A DNA stretch of 58,886 bases from Bryobacteraceae bacterium (GTDB lineage Bacteria; Acidobacteriota; Terriglobia; Bryobacterales; Bryobacteraceae), in contig JANWXD010000026.1 in assembly GCA_025055455.1 (NCBI GenBank), positions 1 to 58,886 on the forward strand, in the 5' to 3' direction. This document shows positions 25,517 to 30,492 of the stretch, one piece after another. The notes under the pieces were generated by a model, which did not search any database, was not told where the DNA came from, and worked only from the letters and a program-made list of their open reading frames with translations. The position numbers and the translations under genes were made by a program. How positions within the stretch are numbered: the stretch's first letter is position 1; each line of letters starts with the position of its first letter.

Positions 25517-26785
25517 TTAGGGGCGGTTGCGGTACTTTTCGTAGAGCGTGGTGTGCTTGTTATTGAGGTCCACTTCCTTGCCGCGAACGAAGACGTGCTT
25601 GATTTGCGTGCGCACTTCCAGCAGATCCCCGTCAGCGAGGATGAGATTGGCCAGTTTGCCGGGTTCCACTGAGCCCAGTTCGTTCAAGCCCCAAATTTCT
25701 GCCGGGTACAATGTGAGCCCTCGCAAAGCTTCTTGATACGGCAGGCCGAAGGCCACTGCGGTTGCGGCCTGATACGGAAGGTTCCGCGAGAAACTGCTCG
25801 AGTAGGTCGCGAAGGCAAAACGGACTCCCGCTTTGTGCAACGCCGCAGGCAGCGTGAACGGCCGGTCGTAGGGATCGTCCTCGTTGAGCGGCAGCTCCAG
25901 GACTCTCGGGAGAATGACCGGCACGTCCTTGGCCTTCAGTTCGGCCGCCAGCTTATCGGCATCGCGCGCGCCCGCCAAGATGATGCGAATTTTCTGCCGC
26001 TCGGCGAAAGCCAGAGCTTCGCGAATCGCCTTCTCGCGTACCGCGTGGATCACGACCGGCAGCTTCCTCTCCAGCACCGGGAGCATCGCTTCCAACTGGA
26101 GATCCGGCCGGAGGCCGGACGCGGGCGCCTGTCGGGCGCGCTGATAGCGGCGCGCACGCTCGAACCAGTCGTCGAGTTCCCGGAGCCGCGCCTCGTACCG
26201 TTTTTTCGCCTCGGCGTAGGGAATCCGGCGTTCGGAAGGTCCGGTCCGCTCGGCCGGGGTTTGTTGAATCACGGGGAACTGGAGCACCATGGCGACGCTG
26301 GGGCGCGCGGCCATCTCCTCCCAGGTCCAGCCGTCGAGGTGAATCACTGCTGCCTGCCCGGAGATGATGCCTCCCTCCGGAAGCACTACCGCCGAGGTAA
26401 TGCCGTTGGCTCGGGTGACGGGGATGTGCTCGCTTGCGGAGTTGACGGCGATAATCGTCCGTAATTGTGGCTTGAAGTCGCCGATCTCGCGTATGTCCAC
26501 GGTCTCGCGGACCGAAGTAATCTCGGCAAGGCCCAGGTCGGTCGCCGAATCAATCATGCCCGGGTACAGATGCAATCCCTTGGCCTCCAGGACCCGGGCT
26601 TGCTTGGGCGCCTTGACGACCACACCGACCTCAGCGATCTTGCCGTCGCGGATCAACACGCTCCCGCTTGCGATGTCCGGCCCGGAGACGGTATGGACGG
26701 TGGCGCCGCGGATCAAGACGGTCTGAGGCAGCGCCGCCGCGGCGAGGGCGAGCCAAGCCGACAGGCACGTGGTTGCTGACTTCAC
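25517..26785 (-). CDS. Secreted amidohydrolase-like protein lacking metal ligands
   Basis: A 422-residue exported protein with a signal peptide (residues 1-19) and an amidohydrolase fold: N-terminal beta-sandwich IRGATVHTVSG, then the barrel, then a C-terminal EPGKLANLIL return to the sandwich. The place of the metal-binding HxH is occupied by DSATD in YPGMIDSATDLG, and the late aspartate strand reads FAFATYSSS with no aspartate. Thus the usual metal site appears lost. It is the last of three coupled genes, its ATG overlapping the previous stop. It could be a regulatory or structural partner of the intact paralogue next door. Confidence 0.8.
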   Translation of the reverse strand: MKSATTCLSAWLALAAAALPQTVLIRGATVHTVSGPDIASGSVLIRDGKIAEVGVVVKAPKQARVLEAKGLHLYPGMIDSATDLGLAEITSVRETVDIREIGDFKPQLRTIIAVNSASEHIPVTRANGITSAVVLPEGGIISGQAAVIHLDGWTWEEMAARPSVAMVLQFPVIQQTPAERTGPSERRIPYAEAKKRYEARLRELDDWFERARRYQRARQAPASGLRPDLQLEAMLPVLERKLPVVIHAVREKAIREALAFAERQKIRIILAGARDADKLAAELKAKDVPVILPRVLELPLNEDDPYDRPFTLPAALHKAGVRFAFATYSSSFSRNLPYQAATAVAFGLPYQEALRGLTLYPAEIWGLNELGSVEPGKLANLILADGDLLEVRTQIKHVFVRGKEVDLNNKHTTLYEKYRNRP

Positions 26786-28125
26786 TGCGGCCTTTCCGTG
26801 TCGCGGTCCCTCGTCCGCGAAGGTTGTTTCTTTTCGGCTTCGCGTTCCCTTTCAACCAGCGCTTTGCGACGCTGTTCCCGCTCGGGACGCGCGCTCAGAT
26901 CCCGATCCCGATCGAAATACAGTTCCCCGTCAATAAATACTTTTTGCACCTTGGCGTAGCTGGAGAGCGGGTGCTTGTCGAACAGCACCAGGTCGGCATC
27001 CTTGCCGGGCTCGATGGAGCCGACGCGGTCGTCAATTTCGAGCTGCCGCGCCGGGTTGATCGTGATCAGGCTGAGGGCCTCCTCCTCGGTCAACCCTCCG
27101 TACTTGAGGGTCTTGGCCGCCTCGGTGTTCAGGCGGCGCATCAACTCTGCCGAATCGGAATTCAGGGACACCAAGACGCCCTTCCGCAACATCAAGGCAG
27201 CGTTGTAGGGGATGGCGTCATAGGCCTCCACCTTGTACGCCCACCAATCGCTGAAGGTGGAAGCGCCGGCGCCGTGCGCAGCGATTTCTTTGGCGACTTT
27301 GTAGCCTTCGAGGACATGTTGTAGCGTCTTCACGCGAAACCCGATCTCCTCAGCGAGCCGCAGCAGCATCAGGATCTCGTCGGCGCGGTAGCAATGGGCG
27401 TGCACCAGACGCTTGCCCTCCAGAACCTCGACCAGCGGCTCGAGCCGGAGGTCGCGGCGCGGCGGGATCGCGTTCTCACCCCGTGCGACTTTGTCCTGGT
27501 ATTCCCGCCAGGCTTGCCGGTATGCCTTGGCTTCCGCAAAGGCCTGCCGGATCACGTCTTCGACCCCCATGCGCGTGGCTGGGTAGCGCGGGCTCCGGCC
27601 TTGCGCCGGCGCGTAGCCCTGCCGCTTGGGATTCTCGCCGAGAGCCAACTTGAGGCCGGGCTTGGCGCCCGCAAACAGCAGGCCGCGAGCATCCTTGCCC
27701 CAGCGCAGCTTGATGACCACGCACTGTCCGCCGATGGCGTTCGCGCTCCCGTGCAGGATGTTTGCCGTCGTCACCCCGCCCGCCAAAGCCCGGTAAATGG
27801 CGATATCTTCCGGATCGAGGACGTCCTCGATGGAGACCATGGAAGACACCGAGACGCTGCCTTCGTTGATGCTGTCGGCGGCGATATGCGAATGACAGTC
27901 CACGATGCCCGGCATCAGATATTGCCCGCCGGCGTCAATAACATGCGCGCCCAAAGGCACGAGGGTCTTTTCGCCGGCTTCCGCGATCTTGCCGTTACGG
28001 ATCACCACGGAGCCGCGGAAGGAACCTTTGGTGACCGTGAGCACCTGGGCATTTTGAATGACCAGAGGCGGCTCCGCAGCCAGCGCGCTACACACCGCCG
28101 CCGCGATCTGGAAAACTCGCCTCAT
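26782..28125 (-). CDS. Secreted amidohydrolase with intact metal site
   Basis: A 447-residue exported metal-dependent hydrolase with a signal peptide (residues 1-17). The HxH motif is present as VDCHSHIA, further histidines occur in VHAHCY and LQHVLEG, and the late aspartate in SLNSDSAE, giving a complete amidohydrolase metal site of the imidazolonepropionase-like group. The substrate is unknown, perhaps a cyclic amide or a peptide. A long charged C-terminal tail (arginine- and glutamate-rich, after residue 405) is unusual. It is the middle gene of a three-gene set with ATGA-type overlaps on both sides. Confidence 0.85.
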   Translation of the reverse strand: MRRVFQIAAAVCSALAAEPPLVIQNAQVLTVTKGSFRGSVVIRNGKIAEAGEKTLVPLGAHVIDAGGQYLMPGIVDCHSHIAADSINEGSVSVSSMVSIEDVLDPEDIAIYRALAGGVTTANILHGSANAIGGQCVVIKLRWGKDARGLLFAGAKPGLKLALGENPKRQGYAPAQGRSPRYPATRMGVEDVIRQAFAEAKAYRQAWREYQDKVARGENAIPPRRDLRLEPLVEVLEGKRLVHAHCYRADEILMLLRLAEEIGFRVKTLQHVLEGYKVAKEIAAHGAGASTFSDWWAYKVEAYDAIPYNAALMLRKGVLVSLNSDSAELMRRLNTEAAKTLKYGGLTEEEALSLITINPARQLEIDDRVGSIEPGKDADLVLFDKHPLSSYAKVQKVFIDGELYFDRDRDLSARPEREQRRKALVEREREAEKKQPSRTRDRDTERPQ

Positions 28126-29444
28126 GGCCGGCCCTCCTCTCGAGATATTGCTATCGGCTGGTACTTTCGGCCGTCCACGAAGACATGCTTGATTTCCGTC
28201 TGTTCCTGGAACAGGTCGCCGCTGGTCACAACGAGATTGGCGATCTTGCCTGGTTCGACCGTGCCCAGCCGGTCCGACAACCCATAGATCTCCGCGGGGT
28301 GAAGGGTCAGAGCGCGCAGCGCGTCTGCTTCGGACAGTCCGGCATTGAGCGCCCGCCGCACCGCCCGAACGAAATCCCGGCGGTCGGTCAGTCCGGCGCT
28401 CGAAAACGCGAACCGCACGCCGGCCTTCGCCAAGGTCGCGGGCGTCGCAGGGGCTTTCTCACGCATCTCGAGGACCCGCAAGCTTTCTTCGACGTCCGGG
28501 TCCGCGTCCCGATCCCGCTCGGGCCATTTCAAGCTCACGATCACCGAGACGCCGGACTCGCGCAGAAGTTCAGCGGAGCGCCAGGCCTCGTGCCCGCCGT
28601 AGAGCACGGGTGTCCGTCTGATCTCCGCCGCCAGACGCAGCATGCGCGCGATCTCCACCGCGGTCGAGGCGGGCAGCAGCACCCTGGGCGAAGCCAGCAG
28701 CGCCTCCAGAGCGCGGTCGTATTCGGGGCGTTTGAGTCCGGCTGGGTTCCTGTTGTAAATCGTCCGAGCCTGCTCGTAATGATCCGCGTCGAGGAAGACT
28801 TGGCGAAGATACGCGATGGCACCCATTAGCGAGGCTGGGAACCCGCCGCCGCGGCGCGTCGTCAGGGTCACGTAGAGTCCGGCCGACGGATGGATCACCA
28901 TCTCCCCCGGTCTGTCCCCCGCGAGAGCGATCACGGCGCCCTGACCGCACAAGATGCCGCGCATCGGGAAGGTGGCCGCGGCTGTGAAGCCGATATTGCG
29001 CGCTGCTTCGATCCTTCGCTCGGCGGGGTTCAGCAGATCGGCGGCGCGCACCCACGCGGAATTCACGGGAACATCTTCCGTGCGTTCCGCCTCGGCGGAG
29101 CTCGGAGGCTCTGGCCGCCGCTGGGTGGCAGGAGAACCTTCCGGCAAGCCTAGCGAGCTCAAGGCATCCATCAAGCCGGGATACACGCTCAACCCCTCAG
29201 CTTCGATGACCCAGGCGTCAGCTGGGATCGCGGCTTGGGCGCCGACGTCGGCGATGAGACCGTCGCGAACAATCACCGTGGCGCGTTCGAGTATTGGCCC
29301 TTTTCCCGTGACCACTCGGGCGCCGCGAATGGCATAGACGGCGGGCGCCTCCGCACCGAGCGGCACGCTCCAGAGCACCCCCGCTAGGACTTTGACCGTG
29401 ACATGCTTGGCAACCCGGTATACTGGGAATTCCTTGCGCCGCAT
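28122..29444 (-). CDS. Secreted amidohydrolase-like protein lacking metal ligands
   Basis: A 440-residue exported protein of the same fold as its two downstream neighbours. The HxH site is replaced by MDALSS in YPGLMDALSSLG and the late aspartate strand reads FAFSSAG, so the metal site looks lost. The C-terminal EPGKIANLVV block is conserved. The start is uncertain: ATG at 29444 gives a signal-peptide-like N-terminus with RRK and a hydrophobic LAGVLWSVPLGA stretch, with a TAGAAT box 19 nt upstream. This ATG shares three bases with the purM ATG on the other strand. It is the first gene of the amidohydrolase operon. Confidence 0.72.
   Translation of the reverse strand: MRRKEFPVYRVAKHVTVKVLAGVLWSVPLGAEAPAVYAIRGARVVTGKGPILERATVIVRDGLIADVGAQAAIPADAWVIEAEGLSVYPGLMDALSSLGLPEGSPATQRRPEPPSSAEAERTEDVPVNSAWVRAADLLNPAERRIEAARNIGFTAAATFPMRGILCGQGAVIALAGDRPGEMVIHPSAGLYVTLTTRRGGGFPASLMGAIAYLRQVFLDADHYEQARTIYNRNPAGLKRPEYDRALEALLASPRVLLPASTAVEIARMLRLAAEIRRTPVLYGGHEAWRSAELLRESGVSVIVSLKWPERDRDADPDVEESLRVLEMREKAPATPATLAKAGVRFAFSSAGLTDRRDFVRAVRRALNAGLSEADALRALTLHPAEIYGLSDRLGTVEPGKIANLVVTSGDLFQEQTEIKHVFVDGRKYQPIAISREEGRP
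29419..29424 (+). promoter_or_regulatory. Probable -10 box of purM
   Basis: TATACT lies 18 nt before the purM ATG, inside the coding region of the divergent amidohydrolase gene. No good -35 at proper spacing was seen. Confidence 0.4.
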
Positions 29445-30492
29445 GGCGGCTCGAAAACAAGCAATTCTATACGAAGATGCCGGTGTCAGCATCCGGGAAG
29501 CAGACCGAGCGGTAGCGCGAATTCGCGTCCTCGCGCGCAAGACCTTTACCCCTGCCGTGCTGACCGATATCGGCGCCTTCGGCGCGGGTTACCATTTGAC
29601 CAAGTGGAAGGATCCGGTTCTAGTAAGTTCCGCCGATGGTGTGGGCACCAAGCTCAAAGTCGCTTTTCTGACGGGACGTCACGACACCGTGGGAGAAGAT
29701 TTGGTGAACCACTGCGTCAACGACATCGCGGTGCAAGGGGCGGAGCCGCTGTTTTTTCTGGACTACTTCGCCACGGGCAAGCTCGATGCAGCGGTGGCGG
29801 CGCAAGTGATCTCCGGTGTGGCGCGAGCCTGCCGGCGCAACGGTTGCGCGCTCATCGGTGGGGAGACGGCGGAGATGCCCGGGTTTTACGGCGAAGGCGA
29901 GTACGACCTAGCGGGATTCATCGTGGGGGTGGTAGAGCGTTCCGAGCTGTTGACGGGACACGACCTCCGCCCGGGCGACTCGCTGATCGCCCTGCCTTCC
30001 ACCGGCCTGCATACCAACGGCTATTCGCTGGCGCGGAAGCTCCTGTTCGAAATCGCCGGCTACAGCCCCCGGAGCTTCGTTCCCGAACTTGGCTGTACCG
30101 TGGCCCAAGAACTGCTCAAGGTGCATCGCAGCTATCTGATCCCCATTCGCTCGCTGGCCGCCAACCGGTTGCTGAAAGCCGCGGCGCATATCACCGGCGG
30201 AGGCATCACGGACAACACGCCGCGCATGCTCCCGTCGGGCCTGGCGGCGGAGATTGACACCTCGTCTTGGAAGGTGCCGGCCATTTTCAATTTGCTGCGC
30301 CGGTTGGGGAATATTCCGGACGAGGATTGGCGCCGGACCTTCAATCTGGGCGTGGGCCTGATCATGGCGGTCGGGGCTGAGGCGGTGGCGCCGGCCCGGC
30401 GGCTGCTCGACCGGCTCGGCGAGGAGCATTGGCAGATCGGCCGAGTCGTCCGCCGCCCGCGCCGCGTCCGCGCGCGCGTGATTTACGTATGA
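29443..30492 (+). CDS. purM: Phosphoribosylformylglycinamidine cyclo-ligase (AIR synthetase)
   Basis: ATP-dependent enzyme that closes the imidazole ring of aminoimidazole ribotide, step five of purine synthesis. The 349-residue protein has the usual blocks: SSADGVGTKLKVA, NHCVNDIAVQGAEPLFFLDY, GGETAEMPGFY and HITGGGITDNTPR. ATG at 29443 begins MAARKQAILYEDAGVS, the family's normal start. Its stop overlaps the purN start as ATGA. It supplies the substrate that thiC also uses. Confidence 0.93.
   Translation: MAARKQAILYEDAGVSIREADRAVARIRVLARKTFTPAVLTDIGAFGAGYHLTKWKDPVLVSSADGVGTKLKVAFLTGRHDTVGEDLVNHCVNDIAVQGAEPLFFLDYFATGKLDAAVAAQVISGVARACRRNGCALIGGETAEMPGFYGEGEYDLAGFIVGVVERSELLTGHDLRPGDSLIALPSTGLHTNGYSLARKLLFEIAGYSPRSFVPELGCTVAQELLKVHRSYLIPIRSLAANRLLKAAAHITGGGITDNTPRMLPSGLAAEIDTSSWKVPAIFNLLRRLGNIPDEDWRRTFNLGVGLIMAVGAEAVAPARRLLDRLGEEHWQIGRVVRRPRRVRARVIYV
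29464..29469 (-). promoter_or_regulatory. Probable -10 box of the amidohydrolase operon
   Basis: TAGAAT on the reverse strand lies 19 nt before the ATG at 29444 and inside the 5' end of purM. Confidence 0.35.

Follow-up and report, generated by a model that had tools for sequence, protein, structure and literature searches.

Three linked genes predicted to encode an exported hetero-oligomeric amidohydrolase with one metalloenzyme and two pseudoenzyme subunits

Three overlapping genes in the window (the whole 58,886-nucleotide stretch of DNA analysed here) most probably encode one exported amidohydrolase built as a hetero-oligomer of three subunits, in which B is the sole metalloenzyme and A and C are pseudoenzyme barrels. 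We predict a hetero-oligomer because the linkage of the genes is conserved, natural A-B, B-C and A-B-C fusions exist, the two-domain models are confident, and no His or Cys column is conserved in A or C. The same evidence supports the initial annotation, which had suggested that one enzyme and two pseudoenzymes are joined in a hetero-oligomer. We infer a physical complex with a 1:1:1 ratio, catalysis by B on an amide or peptide substrate, and a role for A and C. The trio, often fused, recurs in several phyla, an indication that a three-part enzyme has gone unrecognised.

Table 1 Genes, junctions and predicted metal ligands of the triad in the window
Feature	Position	Strand	Description
Gene A	28122..29444	minus	Predicted pseudoenzyme subunit, 440 aa, ATG start; amidohydrolase paralogue retaining none of the six metal ligands; hydrophobic N-terminal segment
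Gene B	26782..28125	minus	Predicted catalytic subunit, 447 aa, ATG start; full ligand set; N-terminal hydrophobic segment
Gene C	25517..26785	minus	Predicted pseudoenzyme subunit, 422 aa, GTG start; amidohydrolase paralogue retaining one of the six metal ligands; hydrophobic N-terminal segment
A/B junction	28122..28125	minus	4-base overlap, ATGA
B/C junction	26782..26785	minus	4-base overlap, GTGA
B His78	27892..27894	minus	First His of HxH; ligand column, kept across the B family
B His80	27886..27888	minus	Second His of HxH; ligand column, kept across the B family
B Lys139	27709..27711	minus	Predicted bridging (carboxylated) lysine; carboxylation inferred from relatives
B His244	27394..27396	minus	Strand-5 metal His; ligand column
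B His270	27316..27318	minus	Strand-6 metal His; ligand column
B Asp324	27154..27156	minus	Strand-8 Asp; ligand column

Results

The three proteins are full-length paralogues by BLASTP, A and C being identical at 140 of 419 positions (E 2e-46), B and C at 123 of 412 (E 2e-24) and A and B at 109 of 405 (E 5e-23). The initial annotation had described ATGA-type junctions, which is right for A/B but not for B/C, although the two overlaps are of equal length. The exact start of A is uncertain because its ATG shares the letters CATG with the start of the divergent purM gene. Signal peptides had also been proposed for all three proteins. In agreement with this, a hydrophobicity heuristic that was positive in 3 of 89 internal control windows finds a hydrophobic N-terminal segment in every protein scored (19 A, 17 B and 21 C), with start codons chosen by script and fusion proteins left out. 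Judged from these segments, A, B and C are probably located outside the cytoplasm.

All three proteins exceed the Pfam PF01979 cut-off of 25 bits (A 56.3, B 86.4 and C 43.9 bits), the best stretch covering residues 69–401 in B and the C-terminal part only in A and C. A and C would thus be annotated as enzymes, although they lack residues that the usual chemistry requires. The dihydroorotase model TIGR00857 (cut-off 279.05) gives 31.8 bits for A and 24.4 bits for C, and for B it is absent from the 25 matches listed. The imidazolonepropionase model TIGR01224 (hutI, cut-off 298.15) gives 33.6 bits for A, 23.9 bits for C and, for B, 55.2 bits, a score that does not bear out the comparison with imidazolonepropionase-like amidohydrolases proposed initially. 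Models of natural fusions, whose chains are orthologues of those in the window, predict a barrel fold with a composite domain for the A, B and C domains. Compared with 3ooq, the modelled L105 B domain gives a Z of 47.0 (rmsd 2.1, 372 aligned) and the modelled L106 C domain a Z of 48.0 (rmsd 2.7, 375 aligned); for the A domain (fusion model residues 30–434) a match to 9kov_G has a Z of 24.5 (rmsd 3.7, 297 aligned).

The full ligand set of an active metal-dependent amidohydrolase is found in B and not in A or C. Within the window the HxH/K/H/H/D set is complete only in B, while A keeps none of the six B ligands and C keeps one, the strand-5 His (six fragments were left out when the window genes were compared with related genomes). 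The motifs quoted in the initial annotation are correct, CHSHI and NSDSAE belonging to B, DALSS and SSAG to A, and DSATD and ATYSSS to C. The conserved Lys in the B set suggests that the centre is binuclear, with a carboxylated lysine as the bridge. Among the matches listed, all six ligands are present in 80 of 81 B domains, while each of 76 A and 76 C domains retains at most two of the seven columns that were scored. Domains shorter than 330 residues, five in all (L092 C, L124 C, L115 A, L090 A and L133 A), are not part of this count. This distribution implies that ligand loss is a family trait rather than decay. Its repetition in A and C domains of other genomes makes it more than chance, and the earlier observation of loss at several metal positions in the flanking proteins extends beyond the window. 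Over 85 columns conserved in B, the metal columns are lost more than the others in A (p 0.011). In C the excess loss is not clearly different (p 0.10), which suggests that C diverged broadly, beyond the metal site alone.

Alternative metal ligands in A and C, which the initial annotation had named as evidence against its own reading, were sought in both families, and zero His or Cys columns are conserved at 90%; five His columns reach this level in the B family. These results make it very unlikely that A and C are active enzymes with an unusual or metal-free mechanism. Such a mechanism could draw on the acidic and basic columns of the C family that are conserved at 90% or more (E88, D97, E100, K377 and D387) and on the strand-5 His retained in 32 of 76 C domains, but the A family has only three H/D/E/C/K/Y columns at 90%, and 3ooq, the closest solved structure to A and C, shows every one of the ligands when aligned to B.

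Each of the three families forms a single clade across phyla, with support of 0.97 for A, 1.0 for B and 0.999 for C. Codon differences at third versus second positions are 0.605 versus 0.280 in A, 0.541 versus 0.199 in B and 0.580 versus 0.265 in C, in a comparison of loci that have A, B and C as separate genes, L041, L049 and L054 excepted. The loss of catalytic residues is what one would see if A and C were functionless, decaying duplicates of B. This explanation is hardly credible, as it is contradicted by the phylum-spanning clades, the open frames, the codon-position constraint and the fusions to B.

Both junctions overlap or abut in the window and in 17 related genomes in which the three genes are separate, where the spacing is –4 to 0 for A/B and –14 to –1 for B/C, with starts in the relatives chosen by script. 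At 75 of 80 named-genome loci, which were the best matches among those listed and were fetched with B alone, A, B and C are all encoded, confirming the co-occurrence in other genomes that the initial annotation had proposed to look for. At least eight phylum names are represented among the 80 loci. At L090, L115 and L124 a contig end truncates one partner, and among the matches listed A or C is missing with no contig end to explain it at 3 of the 80 loci (L108, L096 and L109). At 16 loci a variant of only two genes, one of them for an inactive partner, is present, and two partners are thus not always needed. In 119 Acidobacteriota genomes, with 14–15 candidates scored per genome and with B and C profiles that cross-match, the B profile has matches in 54 and the C profile in 53, all 53 within the 54. 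A second family gene is present in 71 of the 73 B-containing clusters of this sample, and a partner is absent from two. The cluster classes BB and BC mix the triad with the two-gene variant; the classes are unaffected by the omission of 28 weaker C-profile rows because each of those places already has an A or B match that scores higher. There is overlap between the genome sets, L078 and L039 being contigs of equal length with identical gene positions. Viral contigs scanned with protein A contained no relative.

Natural fusions are found, among the matches listed, at no fewer than 56 loci for A-B, at least six for B-C and at least three for A-B-C, with two further A-B fusions in L056 and, truncated by the start of the contig, in L055. 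On the B tree, parsimony needs five changes for the A-B fusion and three for the B-C fusion. AlphaFold2 models were obtained for the A-B fusion of L105 (pLDDT 83.2, pTM 0.86), from an alignment of 55 of the 56 A-B ORFs (L151 left out) plus L056, and for the B-C fusion of L106 (pLDDT 89.3, pTM 0.90), from an alignment that left out L092; in both, the domain arrangement is judged by pTM alone, with no control fusion. The fusions and models bear on whether A and C are instead separate secreted binding proteins around the B reaction, acting in substrate capture or sensing without a stable complex, so that gene coupling would reflect a pathway. Both remain full-length paralogues that have conserved residues of their own, and in one genome (G064) the A gene is unlinked, on another contig than its B-C pair, as such an arrangement would permit. 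We nevertheless regard it as improbable, since the existence of A-B, B-C and A-B-C single chains favours contact, as do the pTM values of the predicted two-domain models.

Discussion

In the hetero-oligomer with B as the only metalloenzyme, the A and C barrels would pack against B, probably stabilising it and probably shaping or gating its substrate entrance. A second barrel can shape or gate the entrance in the homo-oligomers of active relatives. A more far-reaching proposal, which we offer tentatively and rate as rather doubtful, is an old and widely distributed machine of three barrels with a single active site, whose dead barrels would have turned into dedicated gates or sensors that bind ligands and let substrate reach B. 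If true, this would represent a class of exported enzyme in which inactive barrels control the active one, beyond mere propping. If the triad is a complex, the function of B is not assignable in isolation. The separate, half-fused and fully fused natural versions provide a clean system for asking why two dead copies are kept for so long.

The best sequence match of all three proteins is 3ooq, an amidohydrolase from Thermotoga maritima MSB8 whose PDB title states no function (E 5.9e-65 for B, 5.3e-24 for A and 6.7e-30 for C). It resembles B in having the ligand set in the alignment and differs from the triad in having one active-type chain. The cog1228 prolidases and carboxypeptidases (3feq/3n2c, 3mkv and 3mtw, Cc2672) share the fold of the B domains (Z 23.6 to 26.0) and presumably have a metal set of the same kind as that in B. 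However, the NCBIfam Xaa-Pro dipeptidase model NF051886 gives only 44–56 bits for the triad (B 55.6, A 49.1 and C 44.2) against a cut-off of 500, and the entries of the structure matches name no pseudoenzyme partner.

No description of an amidohydrolase with inactive paralogous subunits was found in the open-licence PubMed Central literature. The pseudo-dihydroorotase of Pseudomonas aeruginosa aspartate transcarbamoylase is reported to be inactive yet necessary for the activity of its partner (PMC7053772). It is, like A and C, an inactive amidohydrolase-type chain, but its active partner is the transcarbamoylase (PMC7053772), whereas in the triad the active and inactive chains are paralogous and the inactive ones come in two kinds. 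MetalloBSH from Bilophila wadsworthia is a secreted amidohydrolase with a predicted carboxylated lysine, in which Ala substitution at H110, H112, K373, H441, H474 or D583 each abolished activity (PMC13081902). The ligand types are the same as in B; unlike for the triad, the passages on this enzyme make no mention of an inactive paralogous subunit (PMC13081902).

Gene families found repeatedly in the flanks of the 80 loci, among the matches listed, are mostly common to flavobacterial loci, and as a basis for naming the substrate of B they are too weak. With names taken from the Pfam match of one representative each, they include a SpoU methylase (at least 12 loci), DUF3810 (at least eight), an M48 peptidase and an M20 peptidase (at least five each). 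A second M20 group occurs in at least seven loci of several lineages. In the window, the triad has as neighbours purM, purN, a D-aminoacyl-tRNA deacylase gene and cobalt-transport-like genes.

Gene arrangement and metal site

The products of the adjacent genes A, B and C are full-length paralogues with 27–33% pairwise identity in the window. All three pass the Pfam Amidohydro_1 cut-off, the match covering the whole domain in B and only the C-terminal part in A and C; among the 25 rows listed for each protein, no NCBIfam cut-off is reached. The predicted starts of A and the divergent purM share a CATG at window positions 29442-29445, which leaves no space for separate leaders, and one of the two start codons may be wrong.

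Open reading frames of the amidohydrolase triad
Gene	Coordinates	Strand	Feature
A	29444..28122	minus	ORF, overlaps B by four bases
B	28125..26782	minus	ORF, four-base overlap with both A and C
C	26785..25517	minus	ORF, overlaps B by four bases

The best solved match for all three is 3ooq, from Thermotoga maritima according to the structure title. The ligands H78, H80, K139, H244, H270 and D324 of B align with identical residues in 3ooq. The residues in these columns are L, S, A, P, G, A for the window's A protein and A, D, H, H, G, Y for its C protein, whose sole remaining ligand is the strand-5 His. The initial annotation was right about the overlapping of the three genes and about ligand loss in A and C with retention in B. 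Every ligand is present in all 19 B sequences of the relatives' set (19 B, 21 A and 21 C, counted after six fragments were dropped). In a larger set of 81 B, 76 A and 76 C domains, with five short domains left out, all six are present in 80 B domains, Ser replacing Lys in the exception. Scoring seven columns, the six ligands plus H242, which is variable in B, finds none, one or two kept in 64, 11 and 1 of the A domains and in 35, 34 and 7 of the C domains. A short HxH motif test on the best 80 named-genome loci marks B domains alone. Alternative ligands in A and C would have spoken against pseudoenzymes; no His/Cys column at 90% of sequences was found in the A and C alignments, compared to five His columns at that level in B, so a conserved substitute metal site is not indicated.

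Linkage and distribution

With B as query against 41 genomes (its own and 40 relatives), and regions read from the matching genomes, matches at E 1e-8 or better were obtained in 34. Three separate genes occur in 18 loci (the window and 17 others), and with start codons picked by script both junctions overlap or abut in all. A contig end cuts the C gene of locus L041, and a stop interrupts the B gene of locus L054. A variant with two genes occurs in 16 more loci (L058-L070 and L075-L077): an active B type comes first, and the single inactive partner behind it retains the strand-4 Lys in 14 of the 16 but lacks most of the remaining ligands. This partner clusters with B types and not with C in the tree, and may therefore represent a separate loss event.

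A named-genome scan with the B alignment gave at least 479 confirmed relatives among at least 593 stretches; the 80 best matches were analysed. The taxa given in their record titles are Acidobacteriota, Bacteroidota, Planctomycetota, Gemmatimonadetes, Armatimonadetes, Krumholzibacteriia, Eisenbacteria, Ignavibacteria, Opitutae, Undibacterium and a Kiloniella bin; many records are metagenome bins, and the labels may be wrong. As B alone was the bait, the presence of A and C is a free observation, and all three are found in 75 of these best 80 loci: 53 have an A-B fusion with C adjoining, 13 three separate genes, four A beside fused B-C, three A-B-C in a single frame and two fused B-C followed by A, the remainder being fused A-B without C (three) or B and C only (two). 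A contig end is seen at two of the five incomplete loci (L083 and L156). It does not explain L108, L096 and L109, which hold B and C without A, or A-B without C, and are possibly reduced versions of the triad. In L090, L115 and L124 one partner is seen only as a piece.

The phylum sample comprised 119 Acidobacteriota genomes, each at least 90% complete (thresholds E 1e-70 for B and 1e-50 for C). The B, A and C profiles match in 54, 49 and 53 genomes, and every genome matching A or C also matches B. Because the profiles cross-match, places were merged and classed by the best-scoring profile, leaving out 28 weaker C-profile rows, which gave 37 ABC, 23 BC, 8 BB, 3 lone A and 2 lone B clusters, plus single cases of AB, BCA and a six-gene array, with the two-gene variant included in BC and BB. 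A family neighbour is thus present in 71 of 73 B-containing clusters. The lone A of genome G064 has its B-C pair on a different contig; for those in G127 and G076 our guess, from their positions, is a contig break. The array, class BBBCBB, places six family genes in a row (genome G046, contig C4, 11702-19357).

Descent and predicted structures

Across phyla, A, B and C form one clade each (support 0.97, 1.0 and 0.999, respectively), and the order of deeper splits is less certain (0.43 to 0.89). By parsimony on the B tree, with an unfused root, the A-B fusion requires five changes (59 of 81 leaves, three-part fusions counted) and the B-C fusion three (9 of 81). Third-position differences between the window and relatives are 2.2 to 2.7 times second-position differences in all three genes.

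The model of the natural A-B fusion L105 (907 aa, 56 sequences) has a pLDDT of 83.2 and a pTM of 0.86, the linker at 438-485 being of low confidence; that of the B-C fusion L106 (893 aa; 46 sequences, eight with both domains) reaches 89.3 and 0.90. For two equal domains of undefined mutual placement we would expect a pTM near 0.5, our own expectation, set without a control. Against this value the models suggest that the domains pack in a defined way in both fusions. VIA-align places the L105 B domain on 3ooq_F (Z 47.0), its A domain (30-434) on 9kov_G (Z 24.5) and the L106 C domain on 3ooq_A (Z 48.0). The hetero-oligomer of one enzyme and two pseudoenzymes put forward initially is well supported within the reach of sequence and models.

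Proposed mechanism

B is expected to work as a binuclear metal hydrolase, because its ligand types are the same as the activity-essential ones of the Bilophila metalloBSH, where loss of each ligand singly abolished activity (PMC13081902). A and C would most likely sit against B as permanent partners, giving it stability or shaping its entrance. A parallel is known from Pseudomonas aspartate transcarbamoylase, whose activity needs an inactive dihydroorotase chain (PMC7053772), although in that case the active and inactive chains are not paralogues. The A-B-C set would be a variant of the enzyme-pseudoenzyme kind, which is already known; no description of a triad of this type was found in the open-licence literature searched. 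Neighbouring genes in the named-genome loci and the window gave no clear clue to the substrate of B. One neighbour group, labelled M20 peptidase by Pfam on its L132 representative only, lies near the triad in several lineages (loci L097, L105, L112, L113, L132, L135 and L138).
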